34,109 nt of DNA from Clostridia bacterium (GTDB lineage Bacteria > Bacillota > Clostridia > Oscillospirales > CAG-272), in contig JAFXAN010000053.1 of the NCBI GenBank assembly GCA_017517035.1, positions 1 to 34,109 of the forward strand, written 5' to 3'. Below the pieces are notes generated by a model that made no database searches, was not told the DNA's origin, and saw only the letters and a list, made by a program, of their open reading frames with translations. Below are positions 28,292 through 34,109 of this stretch, piece by piece; position 1 is the first letter of the stretch, and each line of letters opens with the position of its first letter. The position numbers were made by a program, and so were the translations under genes.

Positions 28292-30506
28292 TTAATACGC
28301 CACCTCTGCGTGTCTTATGAAGGAATCCTGCTCCGCCTTTGAAAGATTTACAAAATAAGCATTCCAGCCGCAAAGACGAACTTGAAGATTTTTATATTTT
28401 TCGGGATATTTCTGTGCTGCGCGTAGAACCTCGGGGTCAAAAACATTTCCGTGCATTGCCATTCCGCCCTTTGCAAAATAAGTCATAAGAATACCGTAAA
28501 AGGCATCAATTCCATCCTCGCCGCTGACAGCGGAGGGATGAAGAACAACATCAAGAACTGCACCGTTGGGGAAAAGGCTGTGATCATAACAGCATACCGA
28601 ATTTATAAGTGCGGTGATTCCGTTTCTGTCAGCTCCCACCGTTGCGCAAAGATTCTTTGAAAGTGGATCTCCCGCATTTCTTCCATCGGGAGTTGCCATT
28701 GTTTTTGCACCCATATCAAAGCATTTATTTATCGAAAATGATCCCGGCTTGAAAACACCGCCTCTGGCATTTTTTCTCCCCAAAAGCAAGGAAGAGCAGT
28801 ATTCTGAAAATTCCTTTGTAAGCGCATCTGCACCCTCATTTCCGTTTCCGTATTTTTCCGGAAGATTGCGGGCAATGAGGCGAAGCTTTTCGCTTCCCTC
28901 CCAATTATTTTTTAACACTTCAAAAAGCTCGGCAAGAGTAAGTCTCTTTTCATCATAAACAATCCTTTTGATAGCCGCAAGAGAATCTACAAGGCTTGCA
29001 ATCGAATAAAACTGAATAGCAGTATTGTTGTAGTCTGCACCGCCCTCATAAACATCAAGACCGATTTCTGCGCTTTTATCATACATAGCCGAAAGAATCG
29101 GATCGGGATATATCTCCGTATAATGCTTTTCAATTTCACAGATACGCTTATATGAAACATCGGTAAGATGCTTGATTTGAGCCTTTACAGCATCCTTCAG
29201 CTCCTCAAAGCTGTTGGGAATCTTTGTCTCAAGACCGATAACCTTGCCGCTTGCAAGATCTCTTCCTTGGTTTATCACAAGTTCGATCGCTTTTGGTGTG
29301 CTTACATGCCCCGCTCCCGTGCATCCTATTTCTTTGCCCCAAACAGTCGGCTCATAGCATCCGATGGGAACATAATTTCTCGCATCAGACTCGGTTATAC
29401 CAACCTTCATAAGGGAGCTTACAACAGATTCATCAGACAGGAAAACATAGCTGCTGTTACCGCCTCTAATATTGCAAAGCACTGTTTTTATAAGCTTTTC
29501 CGGACTTTTTCTCGAAACTCTCACATGAATTTTCGGGGAATTTATATTGATGGCATTGAAGGAATCGACAATGAGATATGTCATCTCATTTGTAATATCC
29601 TCGCCATTCCCGTCAACTCCGCCGATGCAAAGAGGCGTTCCGTACTGATCTCCGAAAGCATAGAATTTTCCAAAGAAAAATTTTAGCATTTCGGAAATTT
29701 CTTCTTTTGTATATTTTCCCTCCGCTATATCATTTTTGTAAAAAGGATATAGCATGGTATCAAGTCTGCCAAGGGTTCTGACTCTTGAACCGCCAACATT
29801 TTCGTGAACAAAAAAGTAAATTATGAGGAGCTGCAGTGCTTCATATGTGTTTTTCGGTGCTCCCATGGCAATTTATGAGGAGCTGCAGTGCTTCATATGT
29901 GTTTTTCGGTGCTCCCATGGCAATAGAATCAAGTGCAGCTGCATTTTCGGGATTTGATTCTCTGACAGCAGAAGCAAGTCTATGGCAAAAAGCAAGAATC
30001 GCCTCGTATGTTATTCGGCACGAGGTATAAAAATCCTTTTGCTTTTCTGTAAGTCCTTCCCTTTCGGAATATTTGTTAATTCTATCGAGAATTCCCTTAA
30101 AACCAACCTTTAAAAGCAGATCGGAATTAGGAGAAATATGGCCAAAATCCTCGTTACCATCACAAGCACCAAAACCAACTATTAATTCAAAGGTTTTCCA
30201 TTCCGTTTCTCTCAAGAGCTTTTCAACAACCTCATTTTTCCAAAGCCATCTTTGATGAGAAAAAATGTTTCCCGAATCTATCTTATCCTGAAAAATATCA
30301 TCATCCACAATTGCTATTCTTGCATTTTTCAGCACAAGGTCATATGTCAATGCTTTTATTATGCACCTCGGCTCGTCCTTGACCTTTTCATAGAACTTTT
30401 CATATTCTACCTTAAGCTCTTCTGCCGAAAAGCCGCTGTTTTCCAGCCAATTTACAACTTTGAACTGTTCAGTCAGACTTTTATTTTGTCTGTCATATTT
30501 TTTCAT
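28292..30506 (-). pseudogene. Glycyl radical enzyme gene frameshifted by a 52-bp duplication
   Basis: Removing one copy of the 52-bp repeat at 29821-29924 gives a continuous 720-residue protein of the pyruvate formate-lyase/diol dehydratase superfamily. As written, the frame from 30506 stops inside the second copy met by transcription, after about 220 residues. The rest (28292 onwards) is an open frame starting at MGAPKNTYEA. The C-terminal part has the thiyl site PIGCYEP, with GCxE typical of the dehydratase-like branch, and a glycyl-radical loop RLCGWNAYF near the end. No activating radical-SAM gene or microcompartment gene adjoins. GGTGG lies about 5 bases before the ATG at 30506. It may be a true pseudogene, a reversible switch, or a sequencing artefact. 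Confidence 0.88.
29821..29924. repeat. Exact 52-bp tandem duplication
   Basis: Bases 29821-29872 are repeated without change at 29873-29924. 52 is not a multiple of three, so the duplication shifts the glycyl radical enzyme frame. Both copies encode MGAPKNTYEALQLLI on the minus strand. Confidence 0.98.
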
Positions 30507-30626: not shown

Positions 30627-31406
30627 ATGAAAAACTTTATGAATACAAATCACAATATTTCGTCAATCGAATTTGCCAGCCGTGTAAATTCTAAAACCGC
30701 AAAAAAAGTACATACAAACAGAGCATGTCACGGACTGGTTCTTCACACGAGCGGCGACAGAACATATGTTTTTGACTCGGGAAAACGGGTAAGAGCCGCA
30801 GAAAACGATATAACATATCTTCCCAAGGGGGCAAATTACATAGTTGAAAACACCGGAAACGGAGAATGCTATGCGATAAACTATCTGACCTCTGATGATG
30901 TTTCCTACGAGCCTTTTTCGTTAAAGGCGAAAAATCCATCTCTTTTTCTTGAATACTACAAAAAAGCTGAAAGGGTCGGAAAAATCAACAATCAAGTTGC
31001 ACAAATGGAAAACAAATCTCTGCTATATGCAATAATCTGTGCGCTGATAAATGAATTTGAGGCAGGCTATGCGCCCAAAAGTCAACTTGCCGTTTTGCGT
31101 CCCGCTATAAAGTATATTGACGAAAATTTCTCGAAAAAAAGTATCGATATACCTTATCTTTCAGAAATGTGCGGAATAAGTGAAACATATTTCAGAAAGC
31201 TTTTTTTGAAAGCATACGGAACTTCTCCCATAAAATATGTCCGTTCACTGAAAATTGAAAGAGCAAAAGCCCTGCTCTCCTCGGGACTTTATTCTGTCAC
31301 CGAGGCAGCAGAGCTTTCGGGCTGGAACGACGAAGCCTATTTCAGCCGTGAATTCAAAAAAACTGTTGGAGTATCCCCTTCCGAATCTTCAAAGTCGGAA
31401 ATTTAA
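30627..31406 (+). CDS. AraC-family regulator next to the glycyl radical enzyme
   Basis: This 259-residue protein has an N-terminal beta-rich sensor (HGLVLHTSGDRTYVFDSGKRV) and a C-terminal AraC/XylS domain at about residues 150-255, with IDIPYLSEMCGISETYFRKLF and SVTEAAELSGWNDEAYFSREFK. The ATG at 30627 follows AAGGA by about 9 bases. A longer open frame upstream has no ribosome site and covers the promoter. Divergence from the glycyl radical enzyme suggests that it regulates it, with the enzyme's substrate or product as possible effector. It ends 13 bases from the convergent ferritin gene. Confidence 0.92.
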   Translation: MKNFMNTNHNISSIEFASRVNSKTAKKVHTNRACHGLVLHTSGDRTYVFDSGKRVRAAENDITYLPKGANYIVENTGNGECYAINYLTSDDVSYEPFSLKAKNPSLFLEYYKKAERVGKINNQVAQMENKSLLYAIICALINEFEAGYAPKSQLAVLRPAIKYIDENFSKKSIDIPYLSEMCGISETYFRKLFLKAYGTSPIKYVRSLKIERAKALLSSGLYSVTEAAELSGWNDEAYFSREFKKTVGVSPSESSKSEI

Positions 31407-31419
31407 TTTTCCCCTTGCA

Positions 31420-31932
31420 TCAAAGTACAAGCGAGGGAGCGCTGTAAACTCTTGCGCCAAGCTCGGAATTAAGCATATAGAGACTCTTTGGATCAGAACC
31501 GAAAAGCTCCATTTTTGTGATAAGATCATTGGCATTGGTCTCTTCCTCGCCCTGTTCCTTCACAAACCAATCAAGGAACTGCATTGTTCTGAAGTCCTTT
31601 ACATCGTATGCAGCACCGTAAATATCGTTTATAAGCGATGTTACATACTCCTCATGCTCAAGTCCTGCCTTAAGTACATCCATATGGCACTCGAATACCT
31701 TATCAGGCTTCGGAATCGCCTCAAGAGTTACCTCCTGATTCTCATTCTGAAGATACTGATAAAAGAGCATCGCATGATCTCTCTCCTCCTGTGCCTGGAT
31801 CATATACCAATTTGCAAAGCCGTCAAGTCCCTTTGCCTTAAAATAGTTTGAAAAATCAAGATACAGATAAGCTGAATAAAACTCTTTATTGATCTGCTGA
31901 TTAAGCAGATCACGAACCTTTGCATTCATCAT
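31420..31932 (-). CDS. ftnA: Ferritin
   Basis: This 170-residue non-haem ferritin stores iron as ferric mineral in a 24-subunit shell. Ferroxidase-site residues are visible: Glu17 (NKEFYSAYLYLD), the Glu/His pair in QAQEERDHAMLFY and the later QGEEETNAN segment. Length is typical. AAGGAGG lies 8 bases before the ATG at 31932. It follows desulfoferrodoxin by 25 bases and is probably co-transcribed with it, linking superoxide removal to iron sequestration. Confidence 0.96.
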   Translation of the reverse strand: MMNAKVRDLLNQQINKEFYSAYLYLDFSNYFKAKGLDGFANWYMIQAQEERDHAMLFYQYLQNENQEVTLEAIPKPDKVFECHMDVLKAGLEHEEYVTSLINDIYGAAYDVKDFRTMQFLDWFVKEQGEEETNANDLITKMELFGSDPKSLYMLNSELGARVYSAPSLVL

Positions 31933-31957
31933 TTAACTGTCCTCCTTATGTCAATTC

Positions 31958-32341
31958 TTATATATCTGCCTTCCAAAGTCCGTGAAGATTGCAGTAAGCA
32001 TATACCGCAAGAGGCTTCTCGTCTGCAAGAGCAAACTCAACTTCAGGCGCACCGCCAACCTGGAGGCACTTGCGCTGACCGCCTCTGTCTGTCTGGAGAT
32101 ATACCCAAAGGATGCTATGCTCCTCTACCATGGGATGATCGACAGAGCCAACCTTCACCTTAACAACATTTCCTTCAACGCTTACAACGGGAATGTGCTT
32201 TTCGTGGCTTGCTTCAACCACGCCAGCCTCGAGCTTTGTCATGTTCTGACCGCAGCACTTCATGGGCACGCCCGCATCATTGATCATTCCTACAAGATTT
32301 CCGCAATGCTCGCAGATATAAAACTTATTGTTTGAACACAT
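31958..32341 (-). CDS. dfx: Desulfoferrodoxin (superoxide reductase)
   Basis: This 127-residue two-domain protein reduces superoxide to peroxide in anaerobes. Residues 1-37 form the desulforedoxin domain with centre I ligands Cys10, Cys13, Cys29 and Cys30. The rest is the reductase domain, with centre II ligands His49, His69, His75, Cys117 and His120, and the active-site Lys48 (HEKHIP). All ligands are present. GGAGG precedes the ATG. Its promoter has TATAAT but no -35, and a Crp-like palindrome is centred near -41, suggesting activation by the divergently encoded regulator. Confidence 0.97.
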   Translation of the reverse strand: MCSNNKFYICEHCGNLVGMINDAGVPMKCCGQNMTKLEAGVVEASHEKHIPVVSVEGNVVKVKVGSVDHPMVEEHSILWVYLQTDRGGQRKCLQVGGAPEVEFALADEKPLAVYAYCNLHGLWKADI

Positions 32342-32382
32342 AATTAAAATCCTCCGTGTTATGTTTTTTATTTTATGGCTAT

Positions 32383-32388
32383 ATTATA
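32383..32388 (-). promoter_or_regulatory. -10 box of dfx-ftnA, activator type
   Basis: TATAAT on the minus strand. The -35 position (32406-32411) reads CAGAAA, a poor match. The expected start near 32376 places the centre of the 32410-32424 palindrome at about -41. Confidence 0.7.
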
Positions 32389-32409
32389 GCATTTATTTTT
32401 TATTTTTTC

Positions 32410-32424
32410 TGTGACTGAGTCACA
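32410..32424. promoter_or_regulatory. Crp/Fnr-type operator between dfx and the regulator gene
   Basis: TGTGACTGAGTCACA is a perfect palindrome around one central base (TGTGA-N5-TCACA), one base tighter than the E. coli CRP site. It lies about -41 for dfx and about -46 for the regulator's own promoter. Confidence 0.78.
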
Positions 32425-32427
32425 TTA

Positions 32428-32456
32428 TTGACATGAAAACATTTTAGTGATATAAT
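32428..32456 (+). promoter_or_regulatory. Promoter of the Crp/Fnr regulator gene
   Basis: TTGACA (32428-32433), a 17-base spacer and TATAAT (32451-32456) with an upstream TG, a full consensus needing no activator. The adjacent operator could give autoregulation. Confidence 0.88.
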
Positions 32457-32489
32457 TATAAAGTAAATAATACCGTTGGGAGTAAAAAA

Positions 32490-33164
32490 ATGGAAAAAAA
32501 CGAACTGATAGAGCTTTTCGAAAAGGTTTTTCCCTTTTGGAACAAGATGAGTGAGACGGACAAAGAAACCTTCTGCCGCACGGCACACCATGTGGTTTTC
32601 AAAAAAGGGACAAATGTTCATAATGGCAACGAGTGTACCGGTGTTATTCTTATAAAGAGCGGAAGCCTGCGTCTCTATATGCTCTCCGAGGATGGCAAGG
32701 AAGTCACCTTATATAGGCTTTTTCCCGGGGAAATGTGTATGCTCTCCGCATCCTGCGTCCTTGATTCAATAACCTTTGATGTTTATGTTGATTCTGAGGA
32801 AAACAGCGAATGTATCGTTGTTGGCGGATGCGCCTATGAGGATCTATCGAGAAGACTTGTGGATGCAAAGCTTTTTGCTCTTGAAACAGCACTCAGTCGT
32901 TTTTCAGATGTCATGTGGGTAATGCAGCAGATCCTTTTCATGAGCATGGACAAGCGCCTTGCAATCTTTTTGCTGGACGAGATCGCTCAAAAAGGAGGCG
33001 ACACCGTCGCTCTCACCCACGAGCAGATCGCAAAATATATAGGCTCTGCCCGTGAGGTGGTTTCAAGAATGCTTAAATATTTTGCTTCCGAGGGACTCGT
33101 TGAAGCATCGAGAGGCGGCATCAAAATTCTTGATAAAAAGCGTCTTCGTGAAATGTCACTTTAA
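32490..33164 (+). CDS. Crp/Fnr-family regulator of the redox module
   Basis: This 224-residue protein has an N-terminal cyclic-nucleotide-binding-type barrel (residues about 25-115: VVFKKGTNV, LIKSGSLRLYMLSEDGKEVTL, LFPGEMCMLSASC), a long dimerisation helix (about 118-145) and a C-terminal winged helix. The recognition segment SAREVVSRM combines the Arg-Glu of CRP with the Ser-Arg of FNR. Six cysteines (29, 49, 83, 89, 108, 114) lie in the sensor, without the N-terminal FNR cluster spacing; a redox or metal signal is plausible but unproven. It overlaps convergent trxA by 9 bases. Confidence 0.94.
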   Translation: MEKNELIELFEKVFPFWNKMSETDKETFCRTAHHVVFKKGTNVHNGNECTGVILIKSGSLRLYMLSEDGKEVTLYRLFPGEMCMLSASCVLDSITFDVYVDSEENSECIVVGGCAYEDLSRRLVDAKLFALETALSRFSDVMWVMQQILFMSMDKRLAIFLLDEIAQKGGDTVALTHEQIAKYIGSAREVVSRMLKYFASEGLVEASRGGIKILDKKRLREMSL

Positions 33165-33461
33165 AAGTGCAAGTATCTGCGCCTTGGGGCGTGCGCCCGT
33201 GACCTTATTTACTACCTCTCCGTTTTTCATCACCACAAGCGTTGGAATGCTCATAACTCCAAACTCACTTGCAAGCTCCCCCTCTTGATCTACATTGATC
33301 TTTCCGATAACAAATTCGGGGTTTTCATCTGCAATTTGGTCAATAATGGGAGATACCATCTTGCAAGGGCCGCACCAATCTGCATAGAAATCAAGAAGGA
33401 CGGGCTTTTCACTTGCTTTTATTTCTTCAAAATTCATTTTATTAATCTTAATAGCTGACAT
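33156..33461 (-). CDS. trxA: Thioredoxin
   Basis: This 101-residue thioredoxin has the redox motif ADWCGPCKM (Cys30, Cys33), the Asp buried beneath it (LLDFYADWC) and the cis-proline loop SIPTLVVMKNGE. It reduces protein disulfides and can supply electrons to peroxide-removing enzymes. GGAG lies about 8-11 bases before the ATG. The 3' end overlaps the Crp/Fnr gene by 9 bases. The promoter is of the same activator type as that of dfx. No thioredoxin reductase gene is nearby. Confidence 0.97.
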   Translation of the reverse strand: MSAIKINKMNFEEIKASEKPVLLDFYADWCGPCKMVSPIIDQIADENPEFVIGKINVDQEGELASEFGVMSIPTLVVMKNGEVVNKVTGARPKAQILALLK

Positions 33462-33566: not shown

Positions 33567-34109
33567 AAAAACAAACCAAAATTTGGTTTTCAAACAGGAA
33601 TTTATCGAACTGTCGGATTTGCTGAACGGTAGTATACGGAAATTGTTTATTTGAGGAGAAGTTAGTTACTGCGTAGGCGCTCATGCCGCGCGGCACTTCC
33701 TTTGGCCCGCCCCAAAGGAAGCAAAAGTCTCCCAAGGCGTTCCCCCTTGGGTATCTCCCTTTTTAAGTCTGAACCAACGCAGACAAAAGACTTTGCCTTT
33801 GGCAAAGCTCTTTTGCTCTGCTGTAAGTGCTCTCATATTCCCATTTGCGGCATAAAGCACCGCCGCAAGTGGGGCACAACTTTTGGCTCTTATGTCGCTC
33901 ACACAAATAATATTATAAGTAACGCACGCCATTTCGTCTCGTTACGCTCCGCGACGATTTGAAAACAAAAACCTTCTTTTCGACAAACAACTGCTTAAAT
34001 ATGAACATTCAAAATAGTTAGTTTTTACAAGGTATTGTTTCACCGTTTCCAAAATCTTTATATCAAATTCTCGCGAAGCGTAAGGGGATAATATGGCGTG
34101 TGTCTGTAA
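33567..34109. repeat. Non-coding, hairpin-rich repeat region
   Basis: No supported gene is seen. Successive hairpins are visible: CTTCCTTTGG with CCAAAGGAAG (33696-33721), CCCAAGG with CCTTGGG (33731-33751), and CTTTGCC with GGCAAAG (33791-33807). The bias and an 83-residue open frame rich in Ala, Gly and Cys resemble interspersed repeats common in Clostridia (recalled, not searched). The last 150 bases are AT-rich and featureless. Confidence 0.55.

Follow-up and report, generated by a model that had tools for sequence, protein, structure and literature searches.

In the window analysed here (the whole stretch of 34,109 nucleotides), a PFL2-type glycyl radical enzyme (GRE) gene on the minus strand was found to be split into frames of 225 and 524 codons by an exact tandem duplication of 52 bp (Table 1). 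This is likely to be a recent, spontaneous and revertible loss-of-function duplication in one of about 20 GRE genes of a gut-type member of the Clostridia.

Table 1. Coordinates of the split GRE gene, the duplicated unit and the divergent regulator in the window.
Feature	Position	Strand	Description
5' fragment, 225 aa	29841..30518	-	contains neither the active-site Cys nor the radical Gly; stop lies inside the second copy
3' fragment, 524 aa	28292..29866	-	matches Pfam PFL-like and Gly_radical; carries the motifs GCYE and RLCGWNAYF
First 52-bp copy (gene direction)	29873..29924	-	original frame, ...IAMGAPKNTYEALQLLI; aligned to the single copy of the relatives
Second 52-bp copy	29821..29872	-	arriving ribosomes read the shifted frame, NCHGSTEKHI-stop
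Divergent AraC-family regulator	30630..31406	+	divergent AraC-GRE pair kept beside most orthologues

The duplication was detected by TRF as an array at 29821-29924 with a period of 52, 2.0 copies, a 100% match and a score of 208, the next-best array in the window scoring 44. The two copies are identical and lie head-to-tail, and the exact match stops at the unit borders; from the base composition, the chance expectation for an exact run of 52 bp in 34 kb is about 6e-27. As 52 leaves a remainder of 1 on division by 3, a change in copy number alters the reading frame. With one unit, 594, 52 and 1529 bases are joined in frame to give 725 codons including the stop, whereas with two units the gene is out of frame. 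The restored product is 724 aa long when counted from the first ATG and 720 aa from the fifth codon. An earlier, sequence-only reading of this DNA had described a GRE gene that was frameshifted by the exact duplication, that regained a 720-residue frame on removal of one copy and that was otherwise free of decay. This description is borne out by the TRF result, the identical copies, the split ORFs and the frame arithmetic, with 720 corresponding to the fifth-codon start; no further stop or frameshift was found in the ~2.2 kb of the gene outside the duplication, and the GCYE and RLCGWNAYF motifs are both present.

In this assembly the enzyme is encoded in two frames instead of as one continuous polypeptide, the form found in the intact relatives, and a loss of enzyme activity caused by the duplication would be predicted. 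The 3' ORF could only be made via internal initiation at an ATG inside the second copy, from which a truncated product may arise. Independent restart at this ATG was considered and rejected, as visual inspection showed no purine-rich site upstream and the resulting protein would be missing roughly the first 200 residues. For rescue by ribosomal frameshifting, ribosomes in the 5' frame would have to slip by +1 or -2 within the ~30 nt between the stops in order to enter the 3' frame; this was not proposed because, on our reading of the sequence, an A-run in this interval would favour -1.

The assignment to the GRE family is based on the 3' fragment, which matched PF02901 (PFL-like, E=4.8e-98) and, at the C-terminus, PF01228 (Gly_radical, E=1.8e-19). 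The active-site Cys/Glu motif GCYE is located at residues 169-172 of the 3' ORF and aligns with GCVE of 2f3o, while the glycyl radical loop RLCGWNAYF is at residues 497-505. The closest solved structures were those of PFL2, glycerol dehydratase and hydroxyproline dehydratase (2f3o, 1r8w and 6vxc), and the best NCBIfam model was TIGR01774. The window gene therefore shares the PFL-like barrel, the Cys-x-Glu motif and the glycyl radical motif with the PFL2/glycerol-dehydratase-type GREs (TIGR01774), but it differs from them in its length of ~720 aa and its weakly conserved N-terminal third, and the 3' ORF missed all of the curated NCBIfam subfamily cut-offs (HypD, CutC, HpfG, PflD and others). 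The intact relative at locus L027, a 720-aa GRE from a sheep colon Clostridia MAG, was likewise below every subfamily cut-off. The neighbours of this relative are a divergent AraC regulator, a GDSL hydrolase, an EamA transporter and a radical-SAM activase.

To determine the ancestral state, the 5' and 3' fragments were aligned separately to each relative. In 11 near relatives (loci L027-L033, L035-L037 and L045), with 46-60% identity across the 3' part, the alignment of the 5' ORF ended at query residue 214-215 and that of the 3' ORF began at query residue 1-4, the two overlapping by ~15 residues on the same relative. The segment is thus present once in all 11 relatives, and no exact tandem repeat of at least 20 bp was found in their loci, so the single copy can be regarded as ancestral. 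Judging by these sequences, this genome alone among those examined carries the duplication.

The sequence-only reading had left three explanations side by side, namely a very recent event, an on/off switch by repeat slippage and an assembly artefact. An artefact, in which the organism really has one copy and the second was introduced by assembly or library preparation, would be in keeping with a single metagenome-type assembly (3.07 Mb in 165 contigs) and with a join that lacks microhomology. The contig ends, however, point to the assembler used. At 58 of 158 contig ends, including the start of the window, the longest exact match elsewhere was 141 bases and none was longer, compared with at most 33 bases at random internal positions used as a control. 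The largest default k of MEGAHIT is 141, and the 141-base end overlaps are the signature of a MEGAHIT run whose final k was 141. As this k is larger than the 104-bp array, the whole array fits within one k-mer or graph node. The 21-mers across the junction did not occur anywhere else in the 1.746 Mb (57% of the genome) that was read for the genome-wide scans; therefore, the junction must come from the reads. A chimeric read would need to outnumber the true sequence in order to survive assembly. No second, one-copy match was found in the genome, and a second locus of this kind was rejected. Contig concatenation or a scaffold-overlap artefact was also rejected, since the overlaps are of 141 and not 52 bases, the junction occurs once and no internal N gaps were found in the sequence read, in which two short contigs were wholly masked. 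An artefact is therefore now very unlikely.

The contig also continues through the site. MEGAHIT progressively removes edges with low local coverage (PMC7299287), and from this behaviour of the assembler the two-copy form would be expected to have dominated the sample, with the one-copy allele not being abundant. This bears on phase variation, in which the duplication would form and collapse often enough to switch the enzyme within a population and the resulting heterogeneity would be selected. The unit that is not divisible by 3, the exact copies and the intact remainder of the gene all agree with such a switch, and there is a direct precedent in the reversible duplications in the pneumococcal capsule ORFs cap3A, cap8E and tts (serotypes 3, 8 and 37) that abolish expression (Waite et al. 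2001, 2003, as cited in PMC4243769 and PMC4022640). These duplications are spontaneous and can give high-frequency phase variation. For the window gene, however, a switch that is reversible both ways would need a repeat or microhomology in both states, and 0 bp was found at the unit ends on either side. Re-formation would thus be untemplated, the relatives carry no repeat at the site, and it is the single such site in 1.75 Mb. Of the slippage switch proposed from the sequence, the expected loss of a copy stands, but the ON state offers no repeat or microhomology and the genome scan revealed no comparable sites. Phase variation under selection is consequently an unlikely explanation, and it is likewise unlikely that the duplication represents one state of a natural two-state population, with heritable on/off expression of an oxygen-sensitive metabolic enzyme in a gut Clostridia species through de novo duplication and slippage loss.

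The gene could alternatively be an ordinary pseudogene on its way out and fixed in the lineage, which would fit with redundancy from the other GRE genes in the genome (~20, all open over their matched length), with the absence of an activating enzyme adjoining the gene on this contig and with an orthologue (locus L034, genome G388) that carries an independent small frameshift at another site (~1530-1540). Set against this are the ~2.2 kb free of any further lesion, the identical repeat copies and the intact catalytic motifs, and several intact orthologues likewise have no strong activase match within their 1.5-kb flanks. We regard fixed decay as highly improbable. Among the explanations put forward earlier, the very recent event is the best supported, with identical copies, an intact gene and a single copy in the relatives; the recency itself is judged from the first two, as no second strain of the species was found. 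By a rough neutral estimate, which assumes that ~15% of changes are disruptive, the divergence since the duplication would be below about 1%.

With regard to the origin of this recent duplication, the best direct match near the unit ends was 4 bp, and a microhomology-mediated origin was rejected because the ends themselves have none. An inverted repeat (GAATCAA/TTGATTC) adjoins the unit; hairpin-induced slippage was rejected as well, the folding being no better than that of shuffled sequences (z of -0.5 and -0.8). Taken together, these results indicate that de novo formation is untemplated and presumably rare. Direct repeats arranged in tandem are unstable, and template switching during replication readily deletes them without RecA (PMC8378479). 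The loss of one copy would be templated by 52 perfect bases, and reversion from OFF to ON is likely. The locus is thus inferred to be asymmetric, easy to turn from OFF to ON and hard to turn from ON to OFF, which is the pattern of a spontaneous mutation and not of a tuned switch. In the mechanism that we propose, a replication template switch, without end microhomology, probably copied the segment once. Because the extra 52 bp shift the frame, ribosomes would meet a stop after about 11 codons of the second copy and no active enzyme would result, until the array is lost again by replication slippage, presumably at a measurable rate, and the gene is restored. The duplication would then be a revertible loss-of-function allele instead of an evolved switch, with no selection for switching.

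In the genome-wide scan, the 52-bp array was the sole exact tandem duplication with a unit of more than 42 bp, the remaining ones having units of 12-15 bp, plus one of 42 bp. It is therefore not systematic, and neither a family of similar artefacts nor one of similar contingency loci was found in the 1.746 Mb. The 42-bp repeat (locus L117, 961-1046) codes for a His/Asp-rich stretch, and its length is divisible by 3. A CRISPR-like array was also observed (locus L094, 16472-16850), with a 36-bp repeat at 66-bp spacing in about six copies.

Comparable events are known from other organisms. In the pneumococcal capsule genes, as in the window gene, a tandem duplication within an ORF abolishes function, and reversion by copy loss is expected; there, however, variation of a surface structure was seen in culture, whereas the window provides a single assembled allele, that of a metabolic enzyme. 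In the E. coli assays of Lovett (PMC8378479), deletion within an intragenic tandem direct repeat also restores the frame, but those repeats were engineered, 101 bp long and on plasmids, while the array in the window is natural and 52 bp long. Subgenic duplication also leads to a premature stop in ssp1 of fission yeast, which is reversible, although the ssp1 duplications have microhomology at their ends (reviewed in PMC13207564) and the one in the window has none.

If both alleles co-exist in guts, duplication-based phase variation, known from surface capsules, would also apply to a catabolic enzyme that is sensitive to oxygen. The present case shows that inferring the assembler k from contig-end overlaps allows subgenic tandem duplications in metagenome genomes to be screened for artefacts without reads. 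Caution is also needed with frameshifted gene calls, as these may conceal a revertible allele.

The other GRE genes (loci L007-L026) lie on contigs C4, C8, C21, C28, C35, C51, C65, C72, C111, C121, C122, C125, C126, C141 and C142, and about 20 is a large number of such enzymes for one genome. Clear activating enzymes were fewer than the GREs, with ~7 places above the TIGR02494 cut-off, and several GREs of the type of the window gene had no activase nearby. Adjoining the AraC-GRE pair in the window, at 31420-33461, are genes for ferritin, desulfoferrodoxin, a Crp-like regulator and thioredoxin (the last two by ORF reading); together they form an oxidative-stress cluster, and its location next to an enzyme that is sensitive to oxygen could be coincidental. 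Dispersed repeats, with a 55-base core at more than 40 places and longer variants of up to 141 bases, were found at many contig ends and also at positions 1-141 and ~33738-33815 of the window, and those at contig ends are probably the cause of the assembly breaks.
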